The notes beneath the pieces were generated by a model. The model searched no databases. It was not told the origin of the DNA and saw only the letters and a list, made by a program, of their open reading frames with translations. A stretch of DNA of 64,000 nucleotides from Aurantiacibacter sediminis (GTDB lineage Bacteria > Pseudomonadota > Alphaproteobacteria > Sphingomonadales > Sphingomonadaceae): NCBI RefSeq assembly GCF_016019885.1, contig NZ_JAEANY010000002.1:62001-126000 (forward strand), written 5' to 3'. The translations under genes and the position numbers were made by a program. This document shows positions 56,890 to 62,546 of this stretch, in pieces (within the stretch, counting starts at the first letter, position 1; every line of letters starts with the position of its first letter).

Positions 56890-56935
56890 GCATACTTCAC
56901 CCGCCGGGGACGGGCGCATATTGGACGAATTGACC

Positions 56936-58315
56936 GTGGCACAGAATTGGACACCCGATAGCTGGATGCAGGATCGCTTCACCGCGATGCACCTGCCGCA
57001 GTATGAAGACGCTGGCGCGTTGGCCGATGCCACGCAGACGCTCGCCGGGTTTCCGCCGCTGGTCTTTGCCGGGGAAGCGCGCAAGCTGCGCGGAGAGCTT
57101 GGCCGCGTCGCGCAGGGAGAGGCGTTCCTGCTGCAGGGCGGCGACTGCGCGGAAAGCTTCGCCGAATTCTCGCCCAACAACATCCGCGATACGTTCCGCG
57201 TGATCTTGCAGATGGCGGCGGTGCTAACCTTCGCAAGCAAGCTGCCGGTGGTGAAGCTGGGCCGCATGGCCGGACAGTTCGCCAAGCCGCGCAGCTCGGA
57301 CACCGAGACGCAGGGCGATGTCACTCTGCCAAGCTATTTTGGCGATAATGTCAACGGGATCGAATTTTCGCCCGAAAGCCGCACCAATGATCCGCAGCGC
57401 ATGGTCCGCGCCTATTCGCAGGCGGCGGCCACGCTCAACCTGCTGCGCGCCTTTGCCGGCGGCGGCTATGCCAATCTGCGGCAGGTGCACAGCTGGACGC
57501 TCGATTTCATGGGCCGTAGCCCGTGGGCCGAGCAATACCAGAGCATTGCCGACCGGATTGGCGAAGCGCTCGATTTCATGGAAGCCTGCGGGATCGACAT
57601 CGAAGACCAGCCGCAGCTGAAAACCTCCAGCTTCTATACCTCTCACGAGGCGCTGCTGTTGCCTTACGAGCAGGCGATGACGCGCGAGGATTCGCTGACC
57701 GGCGAATGGTATGACACTTCCGCCCACTTCCTGTGGATCGGCGATCGCACGCGGTTTGAAGGCAGCGCGCATGTCGAATTCCTGCGCGGTGTGAATAATC
57801 CTATCGGCATCAAATGCGGGCCGAGCCTCGATCCTGATGTGCTGCTGAAATTGCTCGATGTGCTCAACCCGTCGCGCGATCCGGGCCGCATTACGCTCAT
57901 TAGCCGCTTCGGCCATGACAAGGTGGAGCAGGGCCTGCCGCCGCTGGTGCGCGCGGTGACGCGTGAAGGCCAGCCGGTAGTGTGGAGCTGCGATCCGATG
58001 CACGGCAATGTGATCAAGGCGGACAGCGGCTACAAGACGCGGCCCTTCGAGCGGATCCTTGCCGAGGTGCGCGGCTTCTTCGCGGTTCATCGGGCAGAGG
58101 GTACGCATGCTGGCGGTGTCCATCTGGAAATGACCGGACAGGATGTGACCGAATGCACCGGCGGCGCCGTGGCGATTACCGATGAGGGACTGAACCACCG
58201 TTATCACACGCATTGCGATCCGCGTCTCAACGCCGCGCAATCGCTGGAATTGGCCTTCCTGCTTGCCGAAATGCTCAATCTGGAGCTGGGCGAAAAAGGT
58301 CGCGCCGCCGCCTGA
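56936..58315 (+). CDS. 3-deoxy-7-phosphoheptulonate synthase, class II
   Basis: A 459-residue class II (plant/Mycobacterium type) DAHP synthase that condenses PEP and erythrose-4-phosphate at the head of the shikimate pathway. Family motifs: [15 protein letters not shown] (metal Cys), [60 protein letters not shown] and [18 protein letters not shown] 56936 ([10 protein letters not shown], read as Met) gives the family N-terminus; a TTG 15 bases earlier is possible. A hairpin lies in the leader. Confidence 0.93.
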
Positions 58316-58385
58316 TACGTTCCTTCACTGCGCATCAGGGATAACCCCTAAGTGCGCGCGCGGTGTCGGCTAACCCAATTCGCAT

Positions 58386-58417
58386 AATGATCTTCCATCA
58401 CCTGTTGGAGGATCATT
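58386..58417 (+). promoter_or_regulatory. Hairpin that buries the Shine-Dalgarno of the diguanylate cyclase gene
   Basis: AATGATCTTCCA (58386-58397) pairs with TGGAGGATCATT (58406-58417) as a continuous 12-bp stem with one U-G wobble and an 8-base loop. The 3' arm contains the GGAGGA ribosome-binding site, and the stem ends directly before the TTG start codon at 58418. Folded RNA would hide the ribosome-binding site. Confidence 0.6.
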
Positions 58418-60226
58418 TTGCCCATCTGGCAACACCTACGTGTAGCATTGGTCGCGGCGCTCGCTTGGGCACTGCTGGCAGCGGGCAGTCTTGCAATGGT
58501 CAATTCGGCCGGAGCCGCGCTATTGATCTGGGTGCCGGCGGGCGTCGTTGTCGCAGCCTTCCGCTTTACCCCGCGCCAGCACTGGCCGGTTCTTGCCGCG
58601 CTGCTGCTGCCGCTGATTTACATCACAATGATCCTGTTGGGCAGCGAAGCGATTGCATCGATAGCCTTCACCATTTCCGCTTTGGCGCAAGCTGCAATCT
58701 GCGCTCTCATCAGCGTGCGGATCCTCGGCGGGCGCACTGCTTTGCCGCGAAGCGCGCGCCAGGTGGTCGGTCTGTTTGGCGCTGCTGTTACGGGTTGTCT
58801 CGCAGGGGCGATGATCGCCCTTCCGTTTCGTGCGGAGCAGACTTTTGCAGAGTTCGCCTACCTGTTTCTCGCCAATGTCCTGGGCATCCTGATCATCACG
58901 CCGATGGTCTTGCACGTCGGGGGCATCATCCTGCGCATTCGTCGCGGCCGCGCGCTGGAATTCGACCGCGAAATGACATTGGCCTTGCTCGCCTGCGGAT
59001 CGCTCTGCTTTCTGGCGCTGCGGGTGGAAGGTATCTCGCTCATGCCGCTGCTTGTGGCGGCGATGGTCGCAATGGCGGTACGCTTCGGCCATGCCGCCAT
59101 TTACCTGACGCTGATCAGCTATGCTGCCGTCGCCACAGTGCTCAGCCTTGGCGGAGAGAACCCGGTTGCCTTCATTTCCGTAACGCGCGATCAGGGCGTG
59201 CTGCTGATTCAGAGCTGGCTGCTCACTCTGCTTGCCACCGCGCTGCCCATCGCGGCCATGCTGATGAAGTGGCAGGACATGCAGTTCGAGCTTATCCGGC
59301 GCAATTCGGGCATGCACGAAAACCTCATGATGCTCGACTTGTCGGAGCAGATGGCCGGCATCGGGCGCTGGCGCATGGATCTGGTAACGGGGGAGCAAGA
59401 ATGGTCGCAGCGCATGCTCGAAATCTCCGGTCTGCCCGATCACTTCGAACCCAATTTCGACGACCTGCGCGAACTGCTGCCGGACAAGGGGCTTGAGCTG
59501 ATTGGCCATCTGGCGCGCAATCGCCGGGCGCGTGAGCCTTTCACTTTCGATTACAAGGTCAATTCGCCGGAGAAAGGCGAGCGCATCCTGCGCATTTCCG
59601 TGCTCAATGAATTCGACATCACCGGACGGCGTATCGCGTTGTTCGGCATTGCCATGGATGTGACCGAGCAGGTCCACCGCGTACAGGCGCTCGATCTGGC
59701 GCGCGGACAGGCGATGCGGCTGGCGGCAGAGGCGCAGAAGCTCGCCAATACCGATCCGCTCACCAATTTGCCCAATCGCCGCTGCACTTTCGGGCGGCTG
59801 GAATCGATGGTGGCTGTCGCTGCCAAGCACGATTCCGCGCTGACGGCGATTATGTTCGACATCGATCACTTCAAGTCGATCAATGATCAGCACGGCCACC
59901 AGACGGGCGATGAAGTCATTGTGCAGGTGGCCGAGCTCGCCCGCAGGCAGGCACGGCAGGCCGATGTTGTCGGGCGGATCGGGGGCGAGGAATTCGTGTG
60001 GCTGCTTGCCGGCGTCGATGCCCGCAGAGCACGTTCCTTGGCAGAAAGGCTGCGCCAGGCTGTCGAAAGCGGTATCGAAGGATCGCCACTGCCCAACGTC
60101 ACGATCAGCGTCGGTATGGCCCAATTCCGGGCAGGCGATGACGGGGACGAACTGCTCGCCCGTGCCGATGCGGCGCTTTACGAAGCGAAGGAAGCCGGGC
60201 GCAATCAGGTGCGCCGCGCCGCCTGA
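58418..60226 (+). CDS. Diguanylate cyclase with MASE1-like membrane sensor, PAS-like and GGDEF domains
   Basis: A 602-residue inner-membrane c-di-GMP synthase. Residues 1-295 hold about eight to ten transmembrane helices in a MASE1-like pattern (LIWVPAGVVVAAFRF; ANVLGILIITPMVL). A PAS-like domain follows (about 310-430, MAGIGRWRMDLVTGEQEWSQ). The GGDEF domain (about 440-602) has DPLTNLPNRRC, FDIDHFKSIND and the active site GGEEF at 522-526, with the inhibitory I-site RQAD at 513-516. It starts with TTG behind a strong GGAGGA, itself inside a 12-bp hairpin. No EAL domain is present. Confidence 0.9.
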   Translation: MPIWQHLRVALVAALAWALLAAGSLAMVNSAGAALLIWVPAGVVVAAFRFTPRQHWPVLAALLLPLIYITMILLGSEAIASIAFTISALAQAAICALISVRILGGRTALPRSARQVVGLFGAAVTGCLAGAMIALPFRAEQTFAEFAYLFLANVLGILIITPMVLHVGGIILRIRRGRALEFDREMTLALLACGSLCFLALRVEGISLMPLLVAAMVAMAVRFGHAAIYLTLISYAAVATVLSLGGENPVAFISVTRDQGVLLIQSWLLTLLATALPIAAMLMKWQDMQFELIRRNSGMHENLMMLDLSEQMAGIGRWRMDLVTGEQEWSQRMLEISGLPDHFEPNFDDLRELLPDKGLELIGHLARNRRAREPFTFDYKVNSPEKGERILRISVLNEFDITGRRIALFGIAMDVTEQVHRVQALDLARGQAMRLAAEAQKLANTDPLTNLPNRRCTFGRLESMVAVAAKHDSALTAIMFDIDHFKSINDQHGHQTGDEVIVQVAELARRQARQADVVGRIGGEEFVWLLAGVDARRARSLAERLRQAVESGIEGSPLPNVTISVGMAQFRAGDDGDELLARADAALYEAKEAGRNQVRRAA

Positions 60227-60318: not shown

Positions 60319-61560
60319 ATGGCGTTGCCCGAAGCCGCTCAGCAATCCACGACTGCCGCAACGCCTGATGACCTAGCCGCGCAATTCCGCGAGACGCGGG
60401 CGCTTACGGAGAGCCTGCTTGAGCCGCTGAGCGAGGCGGATGCCACCATTCAGTCGATGGAAGATGCCTCTCCCGCGAAATGGCATGCGGCGCATACCAC
60501 GTGGTTCTGGGAGACATTCCTGCTGCGCGATCACGTGGCCGATTACCAGCTGTATGACGAGCGCTGGCCGTTCCTCTTTAATTCCTATTACGAGGCGGAG
60601 GGCGACCGCATCCTGCGTGGGAAGCGCGGCCTGATTTCACGGCCTACCGTGGCGCAGGTGCTGGACTGGCGGCACGCGGTCAACGATGCGATGGATGCTT
60701 TGTTGGATGATCCGGCACATACTGAACTCATCGCCCTCGGCATCGCGCATGAACAGCAGCATATCGAATTGCTGCTCACCGATATCAAACACGCTTTCAG
60801 CAAAAACCCGCTCGGCCCGGCGATGTGGGAGCATGCGGAAAACCGGTCGCCGTCGCAGGGGACGGGCTGGACGGAGCACCCCGGCGGCATCGCGATGATC
60901 GGCCATCAGGGTAATGACTTTGCATTCGATAATGAAGGGCCCGCCCACCGCGTCTTGCTGGAGCCTTTTGCTCTCTCTAAGAGCCTCGTCACAAATGGCG
61001 AGTGGGCGGATTTCATCTCCGATGGCGGCTATGAGGATCACCGCCTGTGGCTGTCCGATGCCTGGGCATGGCTCAGCCGCTGCAACATCACCGCGCCGCT
61101 CTACTGGCGTGAGGACGAGCATTTCACGCATACCGGCTGGCAAAAGCGCGATCCCGATGCGCCGGTCGCGCATATATCCTATTATGAGGCGGATGCCTTT
61201 GCGACCTGGGCGGGCAAGCGCCTGCCGACCGAATTCGAATGGGAAGCGATTGCGCGAGGTAGCGATGCATCCGGCGGAAACCAGCTCGACAATGCCGCGC
61301 CGCCTTCGCCCCGGGGCACGCCATCGCTGTTTGGCGATGTCTGGCAATTCACCCGCTCCGGCTATCTGCCATACCCGCGCTTCCAGCCTGCGGAGGGCGC
61401 GGTCGGCGAATACAATGGCAAGTTCATGGCCGGACAATGGGTGCTGAAAGGCGCGAGCTGCGCCACCGTGCGCGGCCACTCGCGCGCCACCTATCGTAAC
61501 TTCTTCTACCCCCAGCAGCGCTGGCAGTTTACCGGACTGCGCTTGGCCAAGGACCTTTGA
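60319..61560 (+). CDS. egtB: Ergothioneine biosynthesis sulfoxide synthase EgtB
   Basis: A 413-residue iron enzyme that joins trimethylhistidine (hercynine) to a thiol, giving a sulfoxide on the way to ergothioneine. The N-terminal DinB-like domain provides iron ligands: the His in KWHAAHTTWFWETFLL and HEQQHIELLLTD. The C-terminal formylglycine-generating-enzyme-like domain has FALSKSLVTNGEWADFIS and WEAIARGSDA, with the ending RNFFYPQQRWQFTGLRLAKD. ATG 60319 overlaps the AGGAG; TTG 60325 has better spacing and may be used. Its stop overlaps the egtD ATG. Confidence 0.93.
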   Translation: MALPEAAQQSTTAATPDDLAAQFRETRALTESLLEPLSEADATIQSMEDASPAKWHAAHTTWFWETFLLRDHVADYQLYDERWPFLFNSYYEAEGDRILRGKRGLISRPTVAQVLDWRHAVNDAMDALLDDPAHTELIALGIAHEQQHIELLLTDIKHAFSKNPLGPAMWEHAENRSPSQGTGWTEHPGGIAMIGHQGNDFAFDNEGPAHRVLLEPFALSKSLVTNGEWADFISDGGYEDHRLWLSDAWAWLSRCNITAPLYWREDEHFTHTGWQKRDPDAPVAHISYYEADAFATWAGKRLPTEFEWEAIARGSDASGGNQLDNAAPPSPRGTPSLFGDVWQFTRSGYLPYPRFQPAEGAVGEYNGKFMAGQWVLKGASCATVRGHSRATYRNFFYPQQRWQFTGLRLAKDL

Positions 61561-62546
61561 TGAATACCAAGACTGATATCCGCCTTGTCGATCTGGATGA
61601 GGATGGTGTGGACCGCGCCTTTCGCGCAGATGTGCTGACGGGCCTCAAATCGGATCAAAAAGCGATCCCTGCCCGCTGGTTTTATGATGAGCGCGGATCG
61701 CAGCTGTTCGAAGATATCACCAAAGTCGAGGAATATTATCCCACCCGCGCCGAGACCGAGATTTTGCGCGAACGCGGCGATGAATTTGCGAAGCTGATCG
61801 GGCCGGGCCGGGCTGTCGTCGAATTCGGCTCCGGCTCTTCGGTGAAAACGCCGCTTCTGCTGTCTGCGATTGAACCCGGCTCATATGTTCCGCTCGATAT
61901 TTCGGGCGAATTCCTGCGCGCCGCAGCGGCCGATCTGTCAGCGAAATTTCCCGGCCTGCCAGTCTATCCGGTAGAGGCGGATTTTACGAAGCCTGTCGAA
62001 TTGCCAGCTGAAGTCTCCGACGCGCCCAAGCTGGGCTTCTTCCCCGGCTCTACCATCGGCAATATGGTGGCGCGCACCGCCACAGACCTCCTGCGCAACA
62101 TGCGCGAGACGCTCGGCGATGAGGCGCTGCTGCTGATCGGCATGGACCTCATCAAAGACGAGGCGATGCTGAAAAGCGCCTATGATGATGCAGAAGGCGT
62201 GACCGCGGCGTTCAATATGAACCTGCTGACCCGCATCAATCGGGAGCTTGATGGCGACATTCCGGTCGATGCGTTCCGCCACGAAGCGCGGTGGGTCGAA
62301 CCCTATGCGCGGATCGAGATGCATCTTGTCGCGCAGGAGGATGTTACCTTCACCGTCTCGGGCGAGAGTTTCTCGATGCAGGCGGGTGAGACAATTCACA
62401 CGGAAAACAGCCACAAATTCGATCTGCGCAGCGCGAATATGATGCTGCTCGCAGGCCGATGGACGCCGGTGAAGCGCTGGACCGATGCAGAAGAGCGCTT
62501 CTCCCTCATCCTCGCTCGTGCCGCAATGCCGAGGAATGCGCCATGA
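61560..62546 (+). CDS. egtD: L-histidine N-alpha-methyltransferase EgtD
   Basis: A 328-residue methyltransferase that trimethylates histidine to hercynine, the first step of ergothioneine synthesis. Motifs: ALKSDQKAIPARWFYDERGS-type start (here GLKSDQKAIPARWFYDERGS), FEDITKVEEYYPTRAETEIL, the SAM loop VVEFGSGSSVKTPLLL, FFPGSTIGNM and FRHEARWVEPYARIEMHL. ATG 61560 overlaps the egtB stop (TGATG); egtBD is the minimal pathway core, with the C-S lyase EgtE and EgtA/EgtC not seen here. The stop overlaps the start of the DUF5996 gene by 4 nt. Confidence 0.95.
   Translation: MNTKTDIRLVDLDEDGVDRAFRADVLTGLKSDQKAIPARWFYDERGSQLFEDITKVEEYYPTRAETEILRERGDEFAKLIGPGRAVVEFGSGSSVKTPLLLSAIEPGSYVPLDISGEFLRAAAADLSAKFPGLPVYPVEADFTKPVELPAEVSDAPKLGFFPGSTIGNMVARTATDLLRNMRETLGDEALLLIGMDLIKDEAMLKSAYDDAEGVTAAFNMNLLTRINRELDGDIPVDAFRHEARWVEPYARIEMHLVAQEDVTFTVSGESFSMQAGETIHTENSHKFDLRSANMMLLAGRWTPVKRWTDAEERFSLILARAAMPRNAP

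Follow-up and report, generated by a model that had tools for sequence, protein, structure and literature searches.

The ribosome-binding site of a diguanylate cyclase gene of Aurantiacibacter sediminis is paired within a hairpin whose 5′ arm overlaps the segment between the −10 element and the start point of a promoter predicted for the same gene. We think it fairly probable that this arrangement is a promoter-embedded lock of the ribosome site against read-through, such that messages begun at the gene's own promoter are probably the only ones translated, and messages running on from the upstream aroG gene are not. The cyclase gene would have its own promoter, whose −10 element lies about 30 bp 5′ of the start codon. 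The stretch running from this element to the point of initiation would double as the 5′ arm of the hairpin, the 3′ arm holding the Shine-Dalgarno (SD) sequence. Polymerase running on from aroG would produce an mRNA with both arms, in which the SD is buried and from which no cyclase is made. Initiation at the cyclase promoter, possibly of the CtrA type, would fall at or beside the loop and yield an mRNA without the 5′ arm; in the window, this mRNA would have an open 21-nt leader with a strong SD. We infer that the lock may serve to make c-di-GMP production independent of a housekeeping gene.

The hairpin at the cyclase start codon

The features of the region are collected in Table 1, in coordinates of the window, the whole 64,000-nt stretch of DNA that was analysed. 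The open reading frame carries MASE1 and GGDEF domains by Pfam as well as a GGEEF motif, which bears out the initial annotation of a TTG-started diguanylate cyclase. Its start codon lies 102 nt from the stop codon of aroG, the co-directional upstream gene that we presume to be the source of read-through transcripts.

Table 1. Features of the aroG–cyclase region of the window
Feature	Position	Strand	Remarks
aroG-type class II DAHP synthase gene	56921..58315	+	Pfam PF01474, E 1.4e-204
Degenerate copy of the dyad	58336..58352	+	genus consensus about CTAGGGNNTAAYCCCTAGG; predicted centre about −53
CTAACC, CtrA-like right half-site	58370..58375	+	predicted −27 to −22
Predicted −10 element TAATGA	58385..58390	+	overlaps the 5′ arm; sixth base A here, C or T in most orthologues
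5′ arm of the SD-sequestering hairpin	58386..58397	+	AATGATCTTCCA; predicted −11 to +1
Predicted transcription start (A)	58397	+	24 nt after the end of CTAA (58370–58373); A at −11 = 58386
Hairpin loop, 8 nt	58398..58405	+	
3′ arm of the hairpin	58406..58417	+	TGGAGGATCATT; carries the SD GGAGG (58407–58411)
MASE1-GGDEF diguanylate cyclase gene	58418..60226	+	TTG start; Pfam MASE1 6.4e-10, GGDEF 6.5e-42

The stem consists of 12 uninterrupted base pairs with a single U-G wobble (58393/58410), and the TTG codon begins at 58418, directly after it. We thus find the hairpin exactly where the initial annotation had placed it, with the 8-base loop and with the SD in the 3′ arm. The SD is paired over its entire length. 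The isolated element (58386–58417) folds at −15.7 kcal/mol, as compared with a mean of −6.0 (standard deviation 2.4) for its shuffles (z −4.07), and none of 200 shuffles folded as well; with flanking sequences included, the z values were −4.50 and −2.96 in two folds. In a longer context, three extra pairs form between 58382–58384 and 58419–58421 past a T/T mismatch, so that the TTG start codon is itself partly paired. Freeing the SD of the window gene costs 18.2 kcal/mol, a value reached by 2 of the 334 control ORF starts from the same genome.

A hairpin 70 nt past the aroG stop codon, whose stem end forms a TTTT run with the next bases in the window, might serve as an intrinsic terminator or as a 3′-end stabiliser of the aroG mRNA. 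A terminator scan of 58250–58550, however, returned no terminator-like site, and beyond the orthologous stems described below one usually finds the start codon after a short spacer, not a T-run; we give this explanation very little credence.

Pairing of the SD region among orthologues

Matches to the cyclase were obtained in 26 of 40 genus genomes at E <= 1e-80 and in 71 of 397 family genomes, sampled from a larger group, at E <= 1e-60. Among relatives that carry a name, the nearest four all belong to Aurantiacibacter. The comparison set comprises 46 near-full-length loci among the matches listed, 39 of them behind aroG and 7 not (L033–L035, L134, L136, L138 and L139). The 39 loci, which include 24 from the genus (L009–L032, representing 24 of the 26 matching genus genomes) and 15 from other genera (L119–L133), were chosen for aroG linkage, so that all 39 have the DAHP synthase C-terminal motif upstream on the same strand; the gap from aroG to the cyclase start is 70–167 nt (median 101). 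The comparison left aside the partial matches L036–L038, L135 and L137, further matches of the family search, and the named-genome loci except L043, L044, L045 and L050. In two of the 46 loci, L020 and L031, the N-terminal part falls outside the best match. The L031 orthologue (G018:C1:2692130-2693922) consists of two overlapping matches in different frames, suggestive of a frameshift or a sequence error. The leaders are at least 60% alike in three locus pairs, and the remaining loci are below 60%.

Start codons of the orthologues were set by eye from the SD position and the alignment, with doubtful cases in L011, L026, L129 and L130. As assigned, 33 of the 39 orthologues start with GTG or TTG, a prevalence consistent with low expression. 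The 334 control starts came from a crude ORF caller and include some false ORFs, among them an antisense ORF taken over the cyclase itself.

The median cost of opening the SD was 13.9 kcal/mol in the 39 aroG-linked loci, as compared with 6.3 kcal/mol in the 334 controls (Mann-Whitney p 9e-18). The contrast persisted when the orthologues were compared with the 90 controls of best start score (control median 6.1 kcal/mol, p 3e-13), and with equal fold windows the opening cost exceeded the control 90th percentile in 28 of the 39 orthologues. In minimum free energy folds, six or more of the 13 bases of the SD window were paired upstream in 35/39 orthologues and in 155/334 controls. Thus, SD pairing as such is common; pairing as strong as that observed here is not.

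In a search confined to arms close to the predicted start, 37 of the 39 aroG-linked loci showed a stem that extends into the SD region; as judged by folding, such a stem sequesters the SD in upstream-initiated transcripts. The stems range from 5 to 19 bp; counting G-U, the uninterrupted pairs number 12 in the window, 16 in L020, 19 in L023, 18 in L024, 10 in L030 and 11 in L126. In L023 and L024, the GTG start codon lies within the uninterrupted 19- and 18-bp stems. The exceptions are L028 and L132, which have no clear stem, and L029, in which a stem covers the start codon and the SD is not visible.

The initial annotation had proposed that compensatory changes be sought in the orthologous arms, and the comparison returned a strong signal. 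At each of the stem positions 1–10, counted from the loop, 5 or 6 of the 6 standard pair types occur, with 0–3 non-standard cells, in a table that covers 37 loci at position 1 and 17 at position 10 and leans towards pairing, as it was fitted to the best stem of each locus. An arm-swap test, in which the 5′ part of one species was joined to the 3′ part of another, does not have this bias. The native arms gave a mean of 14.0 kcal/mol and the swapped arms 8.9 +/- 0.42 kcal/mol, and none of 20,000 permutations reached the native mean. The swap between the window and L010, the closest leaders tested, was uninformative (18.4 and 13.1 versus the native 18.2 and 15.2).

The weakening of pairing by cross-species swaps argues for a co-evolving RNA structure and against a DNA operator, the alternative that the initial annotation had also offered. 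A dimeric repressor bound to the dyad 58386–58417 would be well placed, since the dyad overlaps the predicted −10 element and start point. The arms, however, diverge widely between species and still pair, G-U pairs included, and a separate dyad at 58336–58352 shows the behaviour of a protein site, with conserved letters and fixed spacing. Because the arms preserve pairing and not letters, we assign almost no probability to the operator.

The pairing could also be a functionless by-product of composition, arising wherever a pyrimidine-rich −10 and start region faces a purine-rich SD. With swapped arms the median is still 8.6 kcal/mol, higher than the 6.3 of the controls, though the fold windows differ slightly. 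Native pairing nevertheless exceeds swapped pairing by 12 permutation standard deviations, and the 16–19 bp stems of L020, L023 and L024 extend past the SD, so that a mere by-product appears quite improbable. We regard it as most likely, from the pattern of base changes, that the hairpin acts on translation initiation at the RNA level.

L033–L035, which have neither aroG nor the hairpin, showed ordinary opening costs (5.9–7.3 kcal/mol); this contrast is a weak one because these loci are diverged and perhaps paralogous. L033 and L034 are diverged MASE1-GGDEF relatives from the same genus, with ATG starts and, by eye, an opposite-strand gene upstream.

A predicted promoter overlapping the 5′ arm

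An unsupervised motif search of the 39 leaders returned two motifs, a dyad (best run 11.6 bits versus 7.7–8.0 in shuffles) and YTAACC-N9-TA (10.1 bits versus 6.8–7.2). Among the 24 genus loci, the spacing from the dyad to the promoter motif is exactly 28 bp in 18 and 27 bp in another 4; those 22 loci place the promoter motif at distances of 48 to 59 from the start codon. The fixed spacing of dyad and motif, together with the variable distance to the start codon, indicates one rigid promoter. A sigma-70 consensus scan of 58250–58550 gave no match.

The predicted −12 position is T in 35/39 loci and the −11 position is A in 34/39; the T, A, T, A promoter core is complete in 30/39, a looser core occurs in 33/39, and 6/39 lack even the loose core. 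The predicted −10 element resembles the Caulobacter RpoD element GCTANAWC, as given in the excerpted text of PMC8144410. A pyrimidine (C or T) occupies −7 in 29 of the 33 loose-core loci, the window having A; this preference is weak evidence, because SD pairing favours pyrimidines there too. According to the excerpt of PMC6180460, mapped CtrA promoters of Rhodobacter sphaeroides have a purine start 23–24 nt after the CtrA site and an invariant A at −11. By the same geometry, transcription of the cyclase gene is predicted to start at 58397. The main ground for this prediction is the −10-like TA with its spacing rather than CtrA. At the exact predicted +1, only 15 of 33 loci have a purine, and a purine lies within one base of it in 34/39, a count inside the range for other triplets (18 to 37 of 39) and thus no support for the predicted start; where a purine was present within one base, the predicted starts were shifted to it. 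G at −4, as in Rhodobacter, occurs in only 4/33 loci.

CtrA is encoded in the genome (424.9 bits, cut-off 350). In this genus, the right half-site alone is conserved; the left half appears in some other-genera loci, and five of these (L123 and L125–L128) have fuller TTTACC-N5-TTCA sites. A genome-wide search for the exact full CtrA site plus the TA pattern gave 1 match, against 6 in reversed controls, so that the assignment to CtrA is weak. The dyad at 58336–58352 is likely to be an activator binding site. The dyad pattern with 2 mismatches allowed had no match in the window's own genome, the window's copy included, and a stricter pattern had 7 matches in 6 of the 40 genus genomes. Two of these (L166 and L167) are this cyclase gene, L163, L164, L165 and L168 look unrelated by eye, and L169 is L168 shifted by one base; no dyad regulon was found in the window's own genome or in the 40 genus genomes.

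The predicted start at 58397 coincides with the final base of the 5′ arm, so that the gene's own mRNA would lack the 5′ arm except for its last base. The same overlap recurs in the orthologues. Relative to the predicted start, the innermost partner of the SD has a median position one base upstream (interquartile range −2.75 to 0), and in 37 of the 38 loci with SD pairing in unrestricted folds it lies at most 2 bases beyond that start; the same limit of 2 bases holds for 29 of the 30 strict-core loci, and for 28 of 30 without the purine adjustment. Of the 305 SD-region partners in the 33 loose-core loci, 278 lie 5′ of the predicted start and hence would be missing from the own transcript, and the median opening cost falls from 13.1 kcal/mol in the read-through transcript to 4.5 kcal/mol in the own transcript. 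Cutting the leaders to 21 nt lowered the median cost by 1.1 kcal/mol in controls and by 8.5 kcal/mol in orthologues. No fall upon truncation was seen in L026, L028 and L122.

A classical leader switch would place the transcription start 5′ of the 5′ arm, so that every mRNA carries the full hairpin, to be opened by temperature, an RNA-binding protein or a trans-acting RNA. The stable hairpin and its compensatory changes are what any functional RNA hairpin would show; moreover, YTAACC taken as a −10 element would put the RNA start just 5′ of the stem, and purines are not preferred at the predicted +1. YTAACC is, however, a poor −10 element, with A as its second base in only about half of the loci, and on this reading there is no explanation for the TA that is strongly conserved 14 bp 3′ of it. 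By eye, no shared loop sequence is seen among the orthologues, and an Rfam covariance-model search of 57900–58900 gave no match up to E = 5. We consider a leader switch unlikely. ROSE and FourU RNA thermometers also pair the SD in a hairpin, which bears conserved motifs and belongs to the leader of the gene itself; the cyclase hairpin has the SD pairing in common with them and matches no Rfam family. Stems of 5 to 19 bp can have no common melting point, and a thermosensor or riboswitch was rejected as a candidate, as neither stem strength nor, by eye, loop sequence is shared.

The proposal of translational control by an RNA element, which the initial annotation had put forward, therefore holds in part. 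RNA-level action on initiation is favoured by the arm swap and the pair types; a switch, thermosensor, trans-acting RNA or protein that opens the gene's own leader is disfavoured, since the predicted start at 58397 would remove nearly all of the 5′ arm. Absence of the 5′ arm from the mRNA, named there as evidence against such a model, is essentially what this predicted start entails. If the gene's own mRNA lacks the 5′ arm, the hairpin would matter only in the aroG read-through mRNA, the existence of which we infer.

Known systems and implications

In the insertion sequences IS10 and IS50, the read-through mRNA hides the ribosome site of the transposase and the mRNA from the own promoter does not. 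Those elements use the device for the self-protection of mobile DNA, and gene, promoter and host all differ from the present case. A closer likeness is found in gene e of phage T4. As described in the excerpt of PMC3014915, a hairpin covers the SD in the longer transcripts that begin upstream, and the gene's own late promoters are so placed that their transcripts are missing the 5′ part and are translated efficiently, as predicted in related phages too; soc, 49 and I-TevI are named alongside gene e. The layout described in that excerpt is the same as that of the predicted cyclase lock, with the start sites here deduced from a motif. Unlike gene e, the present gene is a chromosomal bacterial signalling gene behind a housekeeping gene, in several genera and with wide turnover of the arms, and its predicted promoter is RpoD-like and possibly of CtrA type. 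The CtrA-activated promoters of Caulobacter (PMC4287350) and Rhodobacter (PMC6180460), as excerpted, share with the predicted one a TTAA-type element as right half near −27 and an A at −11; this genus, by contrast, lacks a conserved left half-site and has the dyad near −53 instead.

A literature search of open-licence papers found no paper title on a lock of this kind in a cellular cyclase gene, and the terms MASE, DAHP and shikimate do not occur in the excerpt of PMC9756655, which deals with c-di-GMP genes in alphaproteobacteria. Locks of this kind are known from phages and transposons; the presence of one in a cellular c-di-GMP gene across genera, with free turnover of the arms, would be the new aspect. 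We put at slightly under an even chance the joint proposition that the locus represents a chromosomal promoter-of-origin filter across several genera, in which the promoter of an mRNA decides whether the diguanylate cyclase is translated, and that selection holds promoter function and pairing in the same dozen bases despite free sequence turnover.

Genes behind unrelated co-directional genes are common in bacteria, and how a tightly regulated one among them escapes constant read-through is seldom explained. The locus suggests an answer that is cheap in sequence and resembles that of phage T4, in a cellular signalling gene across several genera. Should the promoter be driven by CtrA, this enzyme would make c-di-GMP in CtrA-active cells alone, out of reach of read-through from the housekeeping gene. 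The arrangement offers a searchable signature, an SD hairpin whose 5′ arm begins at the −10 element, and predicts that RNA abundance alone would misreport cyclase expression. On the other side of the cyclase gene, directly 3′ of it (60319–62546), lie genes with FGE-sulfatase plus DinB_2 domains and with a Methyltransf_33 domain, which we take to resemble the ergothioneine genes egtB and egtD.
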